From: Thermococcus guaymasensis DSM 11113
GTDB taxonomy: Archaea; Methanobacteriota_B; Thermococci; Thermococcales; Thermococcaceae
Length of the DNA: 64,000 nt
Assembly: GCF_000816105.1 (NCBI RefSeq)
Contig: NZ_CP007140.1
Span: 1,390,388-1,454,387, forward strand
Direction: 5' to 3'
In this document: in pieces, positions 7,516-31,103 of the stretch
How positions within the stretch are numbered: position 1 is the first letter of the stretch
How the letters are laid out: each line of letters begins with the position of its first letter
Position numbers and translations under genes: made by a program
Notes under the pieces: generated by a model
What the model saw: the letters and a program-made list of their open reading frames with translations, nothing else
Told to the model about the DNA's origin: nothing
Database searches by the model: none

Positions 7516-8312
7516 AGGAGACAATGATTTACCTACTTGAGAGACCCCAGCTCAGGGACCCCGTCTTCATAGAGGGCCTCCCTGGCATAGGCCTCGTTGG
7601 AAAGCTCGCCGCCGAGCACCTCATCCAGGAGCTCAACGCGGTAAAGTTTGCGGAGCTCTACTCACCGCACTTCATGCACCAGGTCATCATAAAGAAGGGC
7701 TCGATCGTCGAGCTCATGAAGAACGAGTTCTACTACTGGATTAACCCCGACGAGGACGGCAGGGACATCATCATCGTTACCGGCGACCAGCAGGTCGCTC
7801 CGACCGACAGCCCCGGCCACTACGAGGTAGTCGGCAAGATGCTTGACCTCGTTCAGGAGCTTGGCGTCAGGGAGATAATAACGATGGGCGGCTACCAGGT
7901 GCCGGAGCTCCAGGGCGAGCCGAGGGTTTTAGCTGCTGTAACCCACGAGGAGCTCGTTGATTACTACAAGGAGAAGCTGGAGGGCTGTCAGGTAGAGGTC
8001 GTCTGGCGCGAGGACGAGGGAGGAGCCATAGTCGGTGCCGCTGGACTGCTCCTCGGCATGGGCAAGCTCCGCTCGATGTACGGCATAAGCCTCCTTGGCG
8101 AGAGCCTCGGCTATATCGTTGATGCAAAGGCCGCGAAGGCCGTCCTCTCGGCAGTCACGAAGATACTCGGCATCGAGGTCGACATGACTGCACTGGAGGA
8201 GCGTGCCAGGGAGACCGAGGAGATACTCAGAAAAGTCCAGGAGATGCAGAGGGCGATGCTGGAGCAGACGATGCCACCTCAGCAGGAGGAAGAGGACAGG
8301 GGCTACCTCTGA
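7512..8312 (+). CDS. PAC2 family proteasome assembly chaperone-like protein
   Basis: A 266-residue protein of the PAC2 (former DUF75) family. It has the family start EGLPGIGLVGKLAAEHLI, ITMGGYQVPELQGEPRVLAA, and GAAGLLLGMGKLRSMYGISLLGE. A C-terminal helical tail ends in a run of Glu/Gln and an aromatic residue (DRGYL). Archaeal relatives (PbaA/PbaB type) assist proteasome assembly or bind proteasome-like particles. The ATG overlaps the Nop10 stop. Confidence 0.88.
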   Translation: MKETMIYLLERPQLRDPVFIEGLPGIGLVGKLAAEHLIQELNAVKFAELYSPHFMHQVIIKKGSIVELMKNEFYYWINPDEDGRDIIIVTGDQQVAPTDSPGHYEVVGKMLDLVQELGVREIITMGGYQVPELQGEPRVLAAVTHEELVDYYKEKLEGCQVEVVWREDEGGAIVGAAGLLLGMGKLRSMYGISLLGESLGYIVDAKAAKAVLSAVTKILGIEVDMTALEERARETEEILRKVQEMQRAMLEQTMPPQQEEEDRGYL

Positions 8313-24928: not shown

Positions 24929-25186
24929 GGTTTGTTTTTATCAAAGGTTTTTGAAGTGTAGTCTGCTGGTGTTATTGTTTCTTAGAGCTCTTTTTTTATA
25001 GCTCTTCTTACGTATTGACCTATATGCTACTTCTACTGCTTGATATTGCATATATTTGTTTTAAATCTAAAGCATTTTGTTACGTTATAAACGTGTTATA
25101 TATTTATATTACTAGCTTGATGTTTTAAACTACTCGTTTACAAAAAATTTAAATATTATAATCCATAATAATAATTGGTGACTCCC
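24929..25186 (+). promoter_or_regulatory. AT-rich intergenic region and promoter of the peptide island
   Basis: No supportable gene lies in these 258 bases. Base composition drops sharply to AT-rich right after the exporter stop. A box A (AAATTTAAATATTATA, 25145-25160) lies about 30 bases before the Cys-rich peptide. An inverted repeat AGAGCT...AGCTCT flanks a T7 tract near 24983-25006 and may end transcription of the exporter operon. Confidence 0.5.
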
Positions 25187-25288
25187 ATGGGATGGCTATG
25201 TTACGCAGGTTGCGCGGCAGGATGTATGACCGGATGTGGAGCAGTATGTTCTGTAAGCGGAGCAACTTGCTTGGGCCTTTGCCGTTAA
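25187..25288 (+). CDS. Cys-rich 33-residue peptide, probable RiPP precursor
   Basis: Too short for routine gene calling. The ATG at 25187 is preceded by GGTGA five bases upstream and by a box A. The peptide starts MGWLCYAGCAAGC and has cysteines at 5, 9, 13, 17, 21, 28 and 32, a CX3C ladder broken once, with Gly and Ala between. This resembles thuricin CD peptides (CX3CX3C at 5, 9, 13), whose cysteines form thioether bridges to alpha carbons. No leader is evident; a GTG at 25178 would add only three residues. A radical SAM gene, a PqqD-like gene and an exporter follow. Function is inferred. Confidence 0.75.
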   Translation: MGWLCYAGCAAGCMTGCGAVCSVSGATCLGLCR

Positions 25289-25319
25289 AAGAGAAAACAT
25301 TAGTAGGAGGTGAAAGCGC

Positions 25320-25583
25320 ATGAGCTACGTGCCTCCTGTTGGTGGTGATATCGGGGTTGCCGTAGATACCGTGGCAATAAACCAAGCATATGTTTTAAAT
25401 GTGGGTGTATTAATGAATGCAGGCGCATACTTGGATGTGGTAGCTGGTCAATATCTTGCAGTTGCATTAGTGATAGTGGCTTATGCTGGGGTCTTTGTTG
25501 CAACTGTTGCTGCAAAATGGATTCTACGGAGCAATATGGATGTAATACAAAATGAAAAACTTAGTAACTCTAACATGAACTAA
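25320..25583 (+). CDS. 87-residue hydrophobic protein of the peptide island
   Basis: Not recognised. A strong AGGAGGTGA lies six bases before the ATG. The protein is rich in Val, Ala, Tyr and Asn, has no Cys, and holds a likely membrane helix (about residues 46-69, LAVALVIVAYAGVFVATVAA). The N-terminal PPVGGDIGVAVDTVAINQAY stretch is Gly/Val-rich. It could be a second precursor, an immunity protein or a partner that presents the Cys-rich peptide to the enzyme. It is 31 bases after the peptide gene. Confidence 0.65.
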   Translation: MSYVPPVGGDIGVAVDTVAINQAYVLNVGVLMNAGAYLDVVAGQYLAVALVIVAYAGVFVATVAAKWILRSNMDVIQNEKLSNSNMN

Positions 25584-25609
25584 ATATATGGCTTGGTAGG
25601 TGATGAAAA

Positions 25610-26793
25610 ATGAAAATTAGTGATGAGCTTAAAGAGTTCTATGTTTCATTTTACTCAATACTTGATAAATTCGCCCAAAGTCCTCACACAAGAGTGCCTA
25701 TGAGAGCAACTCAATTAAAAGAGTTCTCGGAGTTATTTAGTGAGCTTCGAGAGTTATATCGCAAATACCACATGTGGGCAGAGAACCTAAAAGGTCCTGT
25801 TTCTGTTTCAATCGATGTCACGTATAGATGTAATTACAATTGCCCCTATTGCTACGTTGGATGTTCTTCCAATTTAAATAGGCATGAACTCACTACTAAT
25901 GAAATAATAAATATCATTGACGAACTTGCGGAATTAGATGTGTTAGTTTTGTGTTTATGTGGGGGGAACCAACTCTCCGCAAAGATCTTCTTAAACTTGT
26001 AGACTACGCCAATGAAAAAGGAATTACCGTCAATATGGTAACCAATGGATCTTTGATATCAGACAACTTTGCTTCAAAATTAGCGGAATCAGGTATTGGT
26101 GTCGTTCAGGTCTCCCTAGATGGATCTAAACCTGAGATAATGGAAAAACTAAGACCCAAAGGTTCATATAATAGAGCTATTAATGCAATAAAGAATCTGA
26201 CCGAATATGATATTCCAACAGTTGTAAGTTTCTGTTCAACTAAATTAAACATAGATGACTTCCCAAACACCGTTGAGCTATGCGAAAAACTTGGGATTTT
26301 GTCTGTCCGCACAATGTATTTTGTGCCTGAGACTCCTAGCCATCTAAACTTGGCCCCGACTAATCGTCAATATAAAAACTTGGTATCGTGGATAAATAGC
26401 CATTGGCATGAGTATTCTGTTAGAATAGAATTTGGAGATCCAACTGAACATATAGCAATTGGCCCATATATGTCACTTGTATCATTAAGTATTAGTGCGG
26501 AGGGCTATATCCTTCCTACGCCCTACTTAAGCTTGGCATATGGTCATGTCTCAGATGGAATAAAACATCTATGGCACAATGGATTAGAATATATATGGAG
26601 AGACAATCCTGTTCTTTTGGCAATATCTTCTTACATGAAGACTGAACATGATTTCCTAAAATTGATGTCCTTATTTATGACTAGGATACACTCGAATGGT
26701 TATGTAGATCTGCTACGACTAAATGTGAAGGAAACCATGGATTTAGCAAAAAAGGTTAAGGGGGTGTTAGTGAATGACAACTCCTCTCAATAA
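25610..26793 (+). pseudogene. Radical SAM peptide-modifying enzyme, frameshifted
   Basis: Two frames together make a protein of about 394 residues. The first (25610-25960) holds the 4Fe-4S motif CNYNCPYC near residue 77; the second (from about 25961) continues GEPTLRKDLLKLVDYANEKG, VTNGS and VSLDGSKPE. They meet at a run of six G (25961-25966); seven would restore CGGEPTLRK. The C-terminal part has a Gly-rich segment and HLW, like twitch/SPASM regions, but no cysteines for auxiliary clusters. It would install thioether or similar bonds in the nearby peptide. Real mutation, slippage or sequence error are all possible. Confidence 0.8.
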
Positions 26794-27211
26794 TGCCGGC
26801 ATCTTAAATGATTATTTAACCAATATATTGGATCATGTCGAGGCTGAGGAATATTCGCTTGCTATTCTTGAGGACATTAATTTTAGATTTGAAAGTGATG
26901 GTAGGATTACCACATTCAACCCCCTCACATGGAAAATAACAATTTTGAACCCTACAATGGGTGAAATCGTTAGGATAATTAAAACAAACAGATATGCAAA
27001 ATTCTCGGAGATTCTCAAAATCCTGCATTATAAGTATCCAGATATACCAATAGATGTCCTAAAAAATGACATAAAAAACGCAATTCTATGGCTCTTTGTA
27101 AATGAATTTATTTATATTGTTTCCAATAACAAAGAAAAACTTCACTTTATCTCATTACTGAAAAAAGCCAATGACTTTGACATCAACGACAATAACTCGG
27201 AGGAGGGATAA
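26774..27211 (+). CDS. PqqD-like peptide chaperone (RRE domain)
   Basis: A 145-residue protein overlapping the radical SAM gene by 20 bases. The central part, roughly 45-120, has the PqqD/RRE layout: two or three strands (FNPLTWKITILNPTMGEIV) followed by three helices with YPDIPIDVLKNDIKNAILWL and a final strand. RRE domains bind precursor peptides and hand them to radical SAM partners. Assignment is by fold pattern and context, not by strong sequence identity. Confidence 0.6.
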   Translation: MTTPLNNAGILNDYLTNILDHVEAEEYSLAILEDINFRFESDGRITTFNPLTWKITILNPTMGEIVRIIKTNRYAKFSEILKILHYKYPDIPIDVLKNDIKNAILWLFVNEFIYIVSNNKEKLHFISLLKKANDFDINDNNSEEG

Positions 27212-27213
27212 TT

Positions 27214-27657
27214 TTGGCGGATGGCTCTTTTATCCCTCTCTTAATAGTGTTTGCGCCAATTTTCGGGACAGTGTCATTCGTGGTAGTGATGATAAAGAGA
27301 TGGTTGGACAGCTATGTCCCGTTAAAAGTCATCGTGAGACACAGGAAGGGTAGAACGGAATTGATCATACAGACAAAAAGGAAAACAGAGTATATCAATG
27401 TCTTTGAATTCATCCCTGCGGAATGTTGGGAAGTATTAAGAAGAAGAATCCGTGGGCTTGAATTTGGTAGATATAAATTGGGTCGCTATAAAGGCGCACA
27501 TGGGGAAGTGTATTCGTACGCTATTTCGTGTTCTGGAATATTAATAAAGGATTCAAATGGGACAAAATATTATCTGGCCTTTAACAACATCCAAGAGGTT
27601 ATAGATGCCCTATTGGATGATAATATACAAGAAAAGGTTATAGAGGTGAGAAGATGA
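27214..27657 (+). CDS. Membrane-anchored protein with PH-like domain, unknown function
   Basis: A 147-residue protein starting at a TTG preceded by GGAGGGATAATT. It has one N-terminal membrane helix (about 6-27) and a soluble domain of alternating strands ending in a helix (YAISCSGILIKDS, YLAFNNIQEVIDALLDD), reminiscent of bacterial PH-like domains. It lies between the PqqD-like gene and the exporter permease and could be an immunity or assembly factor. No motif identifies a reaction. Confidence 0.6.
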   Translation: MADGSFIPLLIVFAPIFGTVSFVVVMIKRWLDSYVPLKVIVRHRKGRTELIIQTKRKTEYINVFEFIPAECWEVLRRRIRGLEFGRYKLGRYKGAHGEVYSYAISCSGILIKDSNGTKYYLAFNNIQEVIDALLDDNIQEKVIEVRR

Positions 27658-28457
27658 GCCTCAAACCCGTTATAATAAAAGAGCTCTGGCAGTATCGCTC
27701 AAACAAAAATCTAATTGTACTCTCAACGAACGCCTTGTTTATAATTGCCATTGGACTACTATTGATTTTAAGTGGCCCTCAGTATCTAACTCCATATTCA
27801 AAGCAGGTTGCCATGAGGCAGATATCAGAAAATCCGTCGATTTTTGGGCTATCCATAGAAGATGTGGCAAAAATGGGTGATCAAGCCATAGTCTTTGCCT
27901 CCTTAGTTTCCCAGTTACCACTTGTAATAATAGTAACGTCGACTTTGAGTTCCTACATGTCAATTGTAACGTCTCTATTCTATGAGAGATTATATAAAAC
28001 AATGGAAGTCCTTCTTTCTTCCCCCCTGTCCGAGTCTGAAATCCTCCTTGGAAAGTTGCTTTCCAGTTTGCTCTTTAGTTTGTTCTCGTGGAGTGCTAAT
28101 TTCTTGGCGATTCTCGCCCTTTTGCAGTACCTGCATTTAGAGAGCCTAGGTAGAATGTGGGCTCCAACAGAATATTTTCTGGTTCTCACGATGTTTGTCC
28201 CATTTTCAATGATAATGGTATCCACAAGCATTGGCCTCGTGGCCAGTGCAAAAATAAGAAACCCTGAATTCGTAAATCTAATAGGTATTCCCTTAGTTCT
28301 GGTTCCGACGATAATTTCATTTATTTCTTACCGAATGAAACTGGAAAGCTCCATGCAGGTTTATCTAATCCTAGGTATCACTTCTATAATACTGTCTACC
28401 ATACTATCAATGTTTGGCAAGAGAATTCTCAATCGCCTTGCGTTTATAGCCAATTGA
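27654..28457 (+). CDS. ABC-2 type exporter permease of the peptide island
   Basis: A 267-residue membrane protein with about six helices and the ABC-2 layout: a cytoplasmic start (VIIKELWQYRSNKN), a long first loop after helix 1, then YERLYKTMEVLLSSPLSESEILLGKLL before the helix cluster, a typical coupling region. The ATG overlaps the preceding stop. The ATPase follows ten bases downstream. It most likely exports the modified peptide or protects the producer. Confidence 0.82.
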   Translation: MSLKPVIIKELWQYRSNKNLIVLSTNALFIIAIGLLLILSGPQYLTPYSKQVAMRQISENPSIFGLSIEDVAKMGDQAIVFASLVSQLPLVIIVTSTLSSYMSIVTSLFYERLYKTMEVLLSSPLSESEILLGKLLSSLLFSLFSWSANFLAILALLQYLHLESLGRMWAPTEYFLVLTMFVPFSMIMVSTSIGLVASAKIRNPEFVNLIGIPLVLVPTIISFISYRMKLESSMQVYLILGITSIILSTILSMFGKRILNRLAFIAN

Positions 28458-28467
28458 GGTGAGGTTT

Positions 28468-29377
28468 ATGCTTGAGGTGGAAAATATTAGTGCTGGCTAT
28501 GGTAACGGCGATGTGATAAAAAATCTAAGCTTTATCGCAATAGGAAGGGAGATTTATGTACTATTGGGAGCGAATGGGGCAGGCAAAACAACAACGTTTA
28601 GAGCAATCACTGGCATTTTGCCCCTTTCTAGGGGTAGAGTGGTAGTTGATGGAATTGATCTTTGGGTGGAACCTGAAAAAGCTAAAAGAAAGATCGGGTA
28701 TCTGCCAGAGGGAGAGCGAGTTTATCCAGATTTAACTGTCTACAAGAATCTGCGATTTTTTTGCCAGAATTTATGATGTTGAAGAAGAGCGAATTAATGA
28801 ACTTCTAAGAGAATTTGGACTTGAAAGGTATCGAGATACAAAAGCTGGATATCTAAGCAGAGGATTTAGAAAGAGACTCGCTTTGGCGAGAGCATTACTT
28901 CATAATCCAAACATTTTAGTTTTAGACGAGCCCTTCAGTAACTTGGACATTCCCACAGTTTTGAGCTTAAGGGATAAAATCTTTGAAATGCTGGAAGAAG
29001 GCAAGACAATTTTATTCTCAACACACATTCTAAGTGAACTCCAGAACTTTGAAGGGATAAGATGCAGGGTTGGAATAATGAAAGAGGGAAAACTCATTTT
29101 GGAGGAAAGACTGGAGAACCTACTCAACAGAATCAGCAACATTGAAGTACTGTTTAAAGTCGACAAAAAACAACAGGCAAGAGAACTATTAAAGAAGTTT
29201 GGGTATCCTGTTAAGATGGAAAGCACTGGAGTTGCTGTAAGGGTTTCTAACTATAACGAGGAAACCCCTGCAATAATGAAAATACTCCTAACACAAGGTA
29301 TCAATGTGTATGAGGTAAAACCAAAAGAAACACCAATAGAAAAAATATTCACCGAAATAACAAAGAGAAGTGAGTAG
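28468..29377 (+). pseudogene. ABC exporter ATPase of the peptide island, frameshifted
   Basis: The start (28468, after GAGGTGAGG) has Walker A LGANGAGKTTT and continues to YPDLTVYKNL, where the frame stops soon after a run of seven T (28756-28762). Removing one T joins it to FFARIYDVEEERINELL, the signature region LSRGFRKRLALARALL, Walker B ILVLDEPFSNLD and H-loop STHILSEL, ending at 29377. The intact protein would be about 302 residues. Signature SRGFRKR departs from LSGGQ as in many ABC-2 ATPases. Confidence 0.82.
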
Positions 29378-29458
29378 ACCAAAATGAGAGGGTGCTTCGG
29401 CAGAATATAATTATAGAATGACCCATGCGGAGATTGTTCCCTAAAAGGAGCGTGCACT

Positions 29459-29548
29459 ATGTGCCGTTCGGTAGTTGAATCCATTAATATCCCTCCAGAT
29501 TCATGTCCCATATGGGAAAAAGCTCTAGAGGTGGAAAAATGGGATTAA
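29459..29548 (+). CDS. Possible 29-residue leader ORF before the second ABC transporter
   Basis: ATG preceded by AAAAGGAG and a box A (AATATAATTAT, 29404-29414). The short product starts MCRSVVESINIPPDSCPIWE and has two cysteines. Its stop overlaps the next start by ten bases, so it could couple translation, or be a chance frame. No homology is recognised. Confidence 0.3.
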   Translation: MCRSVVESINIPPDSCPIWEKALEVEKWD

Positions 29549-30206
29549 CATGGACTCAACTTCCTGAGGAGATTAAATACACAGCGAAGCAATTCGGGTT
29601 CTACATCATAGGGATTCCCTCTGTGGTAGCGGTTGTTTACATGTTCGCGAGCTGGACCCCCTTCCGAGCGATGCAATCGTCGGAACGTCGAGCTTCTCCA
29701 TTGCCGTCCTGATTTCCCTTTTCCTAGGTGGTTCGGTTGTCAAAGAGAAGCTCCTTGGAATCCACGAGGTGCTCCTCAGCCTTCCATTCGACCCGGTTAA
29801 GTTTATCTCCATGAGAACCCTCGCGAGCTTCATTATTGGAATCGCGGGAATTGCAGTTGGAAGTGTCGCGGGATGGTTCATAGCCCTCCACGTGGGCACT
29901 CCAATATCATTAACAACGGTGCCCATCGGGATTCTAATCTCAGTCCCGGCGCTCTTCAGCTTCACGTTCCTCATAATCCTGATAACACTCCTCTTTCAGT
30001 CAAAGTACCTCGACGTGGCAAAGCTCATAATTTTCTTCACGGCATACTTTGGGCCCGCGTGCATTCCCAAATACTTTGGAGTTGGCCTCTCATTGGAGAT
30101 TGCACTTGTGTTATCGCTCCTGATGTCCATGGGCGCACTTGCAGTCTCCTACTTGATTATTCACTCCCTCGGAGAAAGACTCGCCGAGAGAATGGTGCTG
30201 GTGTGA
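29539..30206 (+). pseudogene. ABC-2 type permease, frameshifted
   Basis: GC content returns to the genomic norm here. The first frame encodes LTWTQLPEEIKYTAKQFGFY and a first helix, then leaves frame near 29651-29661; one missing base there would join it to DPLPSDAIVGTSSFSIAVL and the rest of a six-helix permease of about 222 residues ending at 30206. The ATPase at 30216 is intact. Either the gene is recently broken or the sequence lost a base. Confidence 0.75.
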
Positions 30207-30215
30207 GGTGGTTCC

Positions 30216-31103
30216 ATGATAGTCCTTGAGAACGTCCGGAAGACCATAAAAGGAACGGAAGTCCTCCGCGGGATAAGCTTGACCGTAAAGCCTGGCGAAA
30301 TCCACGCCTACCTCGGCCACAATGGGGCCGGCAAGACAACGACCTTCCGGCTGGTTCTCGGCCTCCTCGTTCCGGACTCGGGCAGGGTTGAGGTTCTCGG
30401 CGTCAATCCGCTCAAGAGTCCTGAGGTAAGGGCTAAAATTGGCTATCTCCCAGAATATGACCTCCTCTACCCTAACCTCTCAGTGCGAGACAACCTCAGG
30501 CGCTACGCCCTGCTGAAGGGGGTTTATGACGAGAGGGAGCTGCGGGAGCTTCTTGAGTTCTTCGAGCTTGAAGAATACGCCAAAAAGAAGGTTTCGGCTT
30601 TATCAAGCGGGACGCAGAGAAGGGTGGTGATGGCGAGGGCGTTCCTCGGAAGCCCCGAGGTTCTAATCCTCGACGAGCCCACGAGGGGCCTCGATCCCGA
30701 GTGGAGGCTGAGGTTCAAGCGGTTTCTGGGGGAGTATGCGAGGAAGAACGATGCCTCCATCGTTTTCTCGACTCACATCCTCAGCGACGTCGATGAGGTC
30801 TGCAACACTGTCACCGTAATCCGCGAGGGCCGGGTTCTCTTCTCGGGGAGCTTGGAGGAATTCCGGAGGAGCGCGCCGGCGGAAGAGGCCGTCCTCGTGA
30901 AGGTGGCCGATGTTGAGAGGGCCATCGCGGTTCTCCGGGAGAAGGGCTATTCCCCGGAGGTCGTGAGGGGTTACATAGCCCTGAAGAACGCCGAGCCGTC
31001 GGAGGTGAACGCGCTCCTTGTGAAAGCCGGCCTGAGGGTTGAGGAGATTAAAAGGGCGGAGCCGAGCCTTGAGGAGGTCTACGCAATGCTTTATGAGGAG
31101 TGA
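30216..31103 (+). CDS. ABC transporter ATP-binding protein
   Basis: A 295-residue ATPase with Walker A LGHNGAGKTTT, Q-loop region YLPEYDLLYP, signature LSSGTQRR, Walker B VLILDEPTRGLDP and H-loop STHILSDVDE. The C-terminal 80 residues are the regulatory tail typical of ABC-2 ATPases. It forms a unit with the permease just upstream (9-base gap, GAGGTGGTTCC ribosome binding site). Its Walker segments resemble those of the island ATPase, but codon use and GC differ. Confidence 0.9.
   Translation: MIVLENVRKTIKGTEVLRGISLTVKPGEIHAYLGHNGAGKTTTFRLVLGLLVPDSGRVEVLGVNPLKSPEVRAKIGYLPEYDLLYPNLSVRDNLRRYALLKGVYDERELRELLEFFELEEYAKKKVSALSSGTQRRVVMARAFLGSPEVLILDEPTRGLDPEWRLRFKRFLGEYARKNDASIVFSTHILSDVDEVCNTVTVIREGRVLFSGSLEEFRRSAPAEEAVLVKVADVERAIAVLREKGYSPEVVRGYIALKNAEPSEVNALLVKAGLRVEEIKRAEPSLEEVYAMLYEE

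Follow-up and report, generated by a model that had tools for sequence, protein, structure and literature searches.

The described systems closest to the peptide family considered here are thuricin CD and thuricin Z/huazacin. Thuricin CD, encoded by the trn genes of Bacillus thuringiensis, consists of two peptides with three cysteines, in which a first arm bearing a CX3C ladder is followed by a cysteine-free second arm, and its cluster encodes an ABC transporter and a pair of radical SAM/SPASM proteins that are dissimilar to each other. The two radical SAM proteins, TrnC and TrnD, bind each other mainly via RRE domains, and only the radical chemistry of TrnC is reported to be strictly needed; the SPASM domain of TrnC has the spacing C-x11-G-x4-C-x36-C-x2-C-x5-C-x2-C-x14-C (PMC12093266). 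In thuricin Z, cysteines 4, 8, 12 and 16 are linked to residues 38, 34, 30 and 26 (PMC8172795). Two radical SAM genes and ABC genes are also present in the thz (thuricin Z/huazacin) system, the peptides of which are covered by model NF037972.

Radical SAM RiPP clusters are widely predicted in archaea. According to a 2025 paper, experimental validation had until then extended to two haloarchaeal lanthipeptides only, and the paper itself adds lanthipeptides (PMC12144867). We analysed a stretch of 64,000 nucleotides from Thermococcus guaymasensis DSM 11113, hereafter the window, in which an earlier note had proposed a 33-residue, seven-cysteine, leaderless RiPP resembling thuricin CD. The ORF in question (25187-25288, + strand) translates to MGWLCYAGCAAGCMTGCGAVCSVSGATCLGLCR followed by a stop codon, and the translation of its 33 residues confirms the cysteines that had been read at positions 5, 9, 13, 17, 21, 28 and 32. 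A six-frame search of the window gives a single match to the pattern C-X3-C-X3-C-X3-C-X3-C; residue shuffles average 0.

Homologues of the ladder ORF and two kinds of cluster

Homologues were sought in 94 genomes of the order Thermococcales; the genome of the window is a single 1.92-Mb contig and looks complete. Clear relatives of the 33-mer were found in G037 and G070 (E 1.2e-8), and a longer relative used as query also retrieved G022 and a degenerate copy in G001. A plasmid search with the ladder peptide gave no relative; the viral contigs likewise held no ladder-peptide relative, with five candidate matches to the cysteine pattern, and Rfam and tRNA scans gave no match. The Halocin C8-like domain (TIGR04449, cut-off 24 bits), which is cysteine-rich like the 33-mer, matched it weakly (13.1 bits) and did not match the intact ladder peptides.

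In G037, G070 and G022 the gene order is peptide, rSAM1, rSAM2, ABC-2 permease and ABC ATPase, which we call cluster A. Cluster B is intact in G055, G077 and G080, genomes without a close rSAM1 or rSAM2, and comprises two small ORFs, a radical SAM gene, a PqqD-like protein of 139-145 aa, a 147-aa protein, a permease and an ATPase. Parts of both occur in the window, as follows.

25108-25186, + strand: conserved promoter region of the ladder-peptide gene; homology to L025/L026 begins at 25108-25109.
25148-25157, + strand: TATA-like TTTAAATATT, about 25 nt ahead of the start codons.
25187-25267, + strand: cluster A precursor codons 1-27 (MGWLCYAGCAAGCMTGCGAVCSVSGAT), with Cys 5, 9, 13, 17 and 21; 74% DNA identity to L025 7752-7910 over 25109-25267.
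25268-25288, + strand: out-of-frame tail CLGLCR and stop, from the 3' end of cluster B small ORF 1; junction at about 25267-25271.
25271-25323, + strand: what is left of the 3' part of B small ORF 1, read in its native frame (GPLPLKEKTLVGGESA and stop); the intact form ends in SLPLKDKTSGGESA or SLPLKDKTSGGENA.
25320-25583, + strand: second small ORF of cluster B, with a hydrophobic product of 87 aa (N-terminus MSYVPPVGGDIG); clear relatives are always in B clusters.
25610-26793, + strand: radical SAM gene of cluster B, split by a frameshift at a G6 tract near 25961-25966 into the frames 25610-26002 and 25951-26793.
26774-27211, + strand: cluster B 145-aa protein, a possible RRE from a weak PqqD-like model match.
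27214-27657, + strand: cluster B 147-aa protein, no function assigned; homology to B clusters.
27654-28457, + strand: cluster B ABC-2 permease; homology to B clusters.
28459-29377, + strand: cluster B ABC ATPase, frameshifted within a T7 tract around 28756-28762, where the reading in relatives is ATTTTTCGCC.
29417-29539, + strand: cluster A rSAM2 remnant, the last 41 residues (NDPCGDCSLKGACTMCRSVVESINIPPDSCPIWEKALEVEK); 76% identity to P0004 residues 372-412.
29536-30206, + strand: ABC-2 permease of cluster A, with a frame break at about 29658-29661; its two frames match one 225-aa L028 protein.
30216-31103, + strand: intact ABC ATPase of cluster A (295 aa), which is 82-90% identical to its cluster A counterparts in G022 and G021.

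The ladder ORF at a recombination junction

Homology on its two sides identifies the ORF as a recombination scar, not an intact gene. Its first 27 codons correspond to the 5' end of a gene of 50-51 codons, which G022, G037 and G070 have in intact form; the ORF tracks these relatives through codon 27 and departs from them thereafter. Codons 28-33 come from the unrelated cluster B, whose first small ORF contributes its 3' end, read out of frame. Cys28 and Cys32 are thus accidental, since these bases of B small ORF 1 happen to read CLGLCR and a stop in the ladder frame. The expectation that homologues would keep the cysteine spacing holds for the first five cysteines; Cys28 and Cys32 are foreign to the family. 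At the place of the cysteine-free second arm of the three intact peptides, where acceptor residues would be expected, the window ORF has CLGLCR instead.

Across the locus, DNA matches to cluster A cover 25108-25267 (73-74% identity) and 29410-31091, and matches to cluster B cover 25271-29384, in L029-L033. The homology thus switches at 25267/25271 on the left, a point confirmed by a junction alignment, and at about 29384-29410 on the right, and both DNA comparison and alignments show clean homology on either side of each junction. Where an intact cluster A has the later half of its peptide, the whole of rSAM1 and 90% of rSAM2, the window has the B insert (about 25268-29400). To the right of the insert follow the last 41 residues of rSAM2, the A permease in two frames and the intact A ATPase. 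No close rSAM1 was found in the genome of the window, and of rSAM2 only its end, so that cluster A is not intact elsewhere in this genome.

Three genes of the locus are frameshifted, namely the B radical SAM gene (at G6), the B ATPase gene (at T7) and the A permease gene (at about 29660). Each break involves the change of a single base within or beside a homopolymer, and sequencing error may account for part of them. To extend that explanation to the junction itself, with both clusters normal in the living genome, seems highly improbable to us, given the missing rSAM1, the lone rSAM2 end and the clean homology that flanks both junctions. Moreover, the rest of the window consists of long genes without breaks, and outside the locus each gene that it has in common with G022 and G021 matches in a single frame.

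Decay of cluster A is also seen in other genomes. In G001 the degenerate peptide is joined to the rSAM2 end and the transporter genes are intact, and in G021 (L114 6988-9948) the end of rSAM2 is cut nearly as in the window and is followed by a split permease and an intact ATPase. Loss of the maturases with survival of transporter genes would be expected if the transporter also protects its owner. G021 additionally carries a second permease copy and ATPase fragments beside an NMN adenylyltransferase-like gene.

Cluster B as the proposed incoming cassette

Cluster B (window 25320-29377; L030 9471-13710) constitutes a separate RiPP-like system. Its radical SAM gene is one open frame in L030-L032, and the encoded protein has a SPASM-like region without cysteines. 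The two small ORFs are hydrophobic, share a Y-x-P-P-x-G start and have no cysteine ladder; in intact clusters the first of them ends in SLPLKDKTSGGESA or GGENA. None of the curated models names the B peptides. The 87-aa small ORF 2 is probably a B precursor peptide. It had been suggested as a possible helper of the ladder peptide, an idea that its distribution speaks against, for it belongs to the invading cluster and is absent from intact A clusters. The cluster B radical SAM protein was also considered as the maturase of the ladder peptide and dropped, never having been found alongside an intact ladder peptide. In G028 (L029 8600-10010) cluster B is heavily decayed, a deletion joining the radical SAM gene to the ATPase gene, and the gene end just upstream of it is the one that stands ahead of cluster A in G037.

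The chimera might be imagined as a new functional RiPP, in which the B radical SAM protein has adopted a seven-cysteine ladder in place of its own small peptide. The stump does occupy the position of the first small ORF of B, a few tens of bases ahead of small ORF 2, with promoter and start kept, and its 26 compared codons differ from G037 mostly at silent sites, per site. We nevertheless regard this as very unlikely: the radical SAM and ATPase genes of B are frameshifted in the window, Cys28 and Cys32 come from another gene out of frame, and the B small ORFs lack a cysteine ladder just as the stump lacks the Y-x-P-P-x-G start. The 33-residue, seven-cysteine chimera was, besides, found in no second genome among the 94 of the order. 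The proposed seven-cysteine leaderless RiPP is not supported; the window holds what remains of a truncated gene, joined out of frame to an unrelated cassette and with its own maturases gone.

The intact peptide and its upstream region

The intact cluster A peptides are longer than the ORF (MVIPMGWLCYAACAAGCVGGCGAVCYITGATATFVSSQAAMAGATAYAYEH in G037 and (V)IPVGWLCYAICGTICVGGCTAACGVTSGAALAVASQGLMAGGTAAAFGR in G022). Counted from the G of GWLC, the core in G037 and G022 has 46 residues, with cysteines at 4, 8, 12, 16 and 20 followed by 26 cysteine-free residues; this arrangement of cysteines and acceptor arm is drawn from three intact A clusters, two of which have a nearly identical peptide. In all three, the peptide gene overlaps rSAM1 or ends within about 15 bp of it. 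Over 26 shared codons the window and G037 differ with dN 0.13 and dS 0.82. Between G037 and G070 there are one replacement and 18 silent changes in 46 codons (dN 0.02 for the cysteine-free arm), and between G037 and G022 the same arm is more diverged than in the close pair (dN 0.52). Judged from these substitutions, the peptide family was constrained as a protein.

The absence of a leader, pointed out for the ORF, proved true and applies equally to the intact relatives, in which at most MVIP(M) precedes GWLC and a stop codon and a TATA-like box lie just upstream. In L025 the TATA-like TTATAAATA stands about 24 nt ahead of the ATG at 7818. The start of a transcript can be placed from the characteristic distance between TATA box and start in archaea, and by this measure the L025 transcript would begin at the codon of that ATG. 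The missing leader thus looks like a real property of the family, because in-frame stops and the promoter allow at most five residues (MVIPM).

An upstream element, TTAACT...TTAACT..AGTTTACGAAAATTATAAATATT, is common to A and B clusters of different genomes (window 25108-25186; L025 7720-7800; L030 9350-9470), as if the clusters were co-regulated or exchanged there. The TATA-like element of the window resembles the one ahead of intact B clusters. At the G022 cluster, two ABC-2 permease genes flank the locus (L028 7494-8171 and 11251-11931), and of the relatives found, the permease gene ahead of the peptide is the one closest to the split permease of the window.

The two radical SAM-type proteins

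In the three genomes with intact A clusters, rSAM1 has 503-511 aa and rSAM2 410-412 aa. A CX3CX2C motif and a seven-cysteine SPASM domain are present in rSAM1, with the spacing C393-x11-G-x4-C-x35-C-x2-C-x5-C-x2-C-x8-C, nearly equal to that of TrnC (PMC12093266). The partner, rSAM2, has C112-x5-C118 and no CX3CX2C, and keeps GGE and a SPASM-like cysteine set. AlphaFold models of both proteins (mean pLDDT 40-42) are too poor for fold searches; in that of rSAM1 the first 90 residues form three strands and three helices, RRE-like at low confidence.

The direct succession of peptide, two radical SAM-type genes and ABC transporter in 3/3 intact relatives bears on another reading of the ORF, as a small metal-binding or redox protein with no tie to RiPPs. 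Small size, many cysteines and the absence of a leader would suit such a protein, and against this gene context we consider it extremely unlikely.

No library names rSAM1 or rSAM2, and rSAM1 falls well below the curated cut-off of every NCBIfam maturase model. Its best matches include CcpM, lachnocin and PapB-type maturases and RumMC, with CcpM on top (TIGR04068, 233.8 bits; cut-off 500) and RumMC fourth (NF035951, 163.1 bits; cut-off 720), both far under their cut-offs. Profile scans of genome contigs with rSAM1 and rSAM2 returned no confirmed relative in a set outside which near relatives of the window possibly lie; viral contigs gave distant radical SAM matches only, and a phylum-wide rSAM2 search found members only within the window's own family.

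By tblastn against plasmids, relatives of rSAM1 and rSAM2 were found side by side on pRUMAL03 of Ruminococcus albus 7. The enzyme is 33% identical to rSAM1 (E 9e-75), its partner is 26% identical to rSAM2 over the first 190 residues (E 5e-11), and two huazacin-family peptides (NF037972, 50 bits) and an ABC transporter adjoin the pair. This huazacin-family locus (L120, NC_014826.1, 5073-9411) is the nearest bacterial cluster found. Its partner gene is annotated only as a hypothetical protein; the product contains CX3CX2C and gives weak matches to grasp-with-SPASM and SPASM models.

PapB is an enzyme that matures ranthipeptides. With a PapB-type model, CcpM and lachnocin maturases among the matches of rSAM1 besides RumMC, the intact A peptides might carry other radical SAM links, for instance of ranthipeptide type, and the likeness to thuricin CD would then be superficial. 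We find this unlikely, since the seven-cysteine spacing is TrnC-like, a second enzyme is paired with the first, and the nearest bacterial cluster found lies in a huazacin-family context.

Placement among known sactipeptide-type systems

The likeness to thuricin CD that had been drawn for the ORF is meaningful for its intact relatives, which combine a ladder and a cysteine-free arm with a pair of radical SAM-type enzymes and an ABC transporter. It does not hold for the ORF itself, which is a stump only. Compared with thuricin CD, intact cluster A has an archaeal host and one peptide with five cysteines instead of two peptides with three. Of the features that mark thuricin CD-type systems, a TrnC-like enzyme with CX3CX2C and a seven-cysteine SPASM domain is present as rSAM1; an N-terminal leader beyond five residues is absent, and rSAM2 lacks the CX3CX2C of a TrnD-like second enzyme. 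Leader-free recognition is conceivable, given that TrnC and TrnD pair mainly through RRE domains.

The core cysteines 4, 8, 12 and 16 of thuricin Z/huazacin are in the same register as those of the archaeal core, which differs in an extra cysteine at 20, the want of a real leader and the absence of a match to NF037972 (P0001, P0002 and P0005 at E up to 1; cut-off 35 bits). By the thuricin Z rule, under which the positions of cysteine and acceptor add up to a constant and the innermost gap is 10, the archaeal links are predicted to be 20-30, 16-34, 12-38, 8-42 and 4-46, reaching the last residue and taking up the complete 46-residue core. We file the family as a thuricin CD/huazacin-like variant rather than a member, because the huazacin model gives no match and both leader and partner motif differ.

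Proposed history of the locus and its significance

Taken together, these comparisons make it very probable that the ORF is the broken stump of a sactipeptide-type precursor, the middle of whose cluster A was replaced by cassette B. This account starts from the observed homology, junctions, gene content and frame breaks. The ancestor would have held a cluster A with a nearly leaderless 50-51-residue peptide, rSAM1, rSAM2, an ABC-2 permease and an ATPase. Where cluster A is still intact, rSAM1, held with rSAM2, would link the cysteine ladder to alpha-carbons of the second arm by thioether chemistry. The product would be a hairpin whose thioether rungs are nested as they are in thuricin CD and thuricin Z/huazacin. 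The two ABC proteins may export this product, shield the producer, or both, and competing archaea are presumably the target of a putative antimicrobial.

In the lineage of the window, the RiPP-like cassette B, with a promoter region like that of A, would then have replaced the middle of A. The acceptor arm would have been lost in this replacement, together with rSAM1 and almost the whole of rSAM2. The first 27 codons would have stayed behind their former promoter, joined, in another frame, to the end of B's first small gene. The ladder ORF is probably dead; no product is expected from it because of the losses from A and the frameshifts, the ATPase alone of cluster A being intact. The arrangement suggests that A and B cassettes may be exchanged at one site, with the window as a botched example, in a pattern that few genomes support. 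Only tentatively do we propose the fuller reading, possible though rather doubtful as a whole, of a five-rung, practically leaderless archaeal sactipeptide with a scaffold-only partner in Thermococcales that swap A and B cassettes behind a common promoter, the window being a failed exchange.

Although the ORF is itself a dead end, it leads to an intact five-cysteine family with two radical SAM-type proteins that is directly testable. The lack of CX3CX2C in rSAM2 bears on the reported finding that only the radical chemistry of TrnC is indispensable (PMC12093266). A leaderless thuricin CD-like peptide from a hyperthermophile would show a maturase pair recognising its substrate without a leader.
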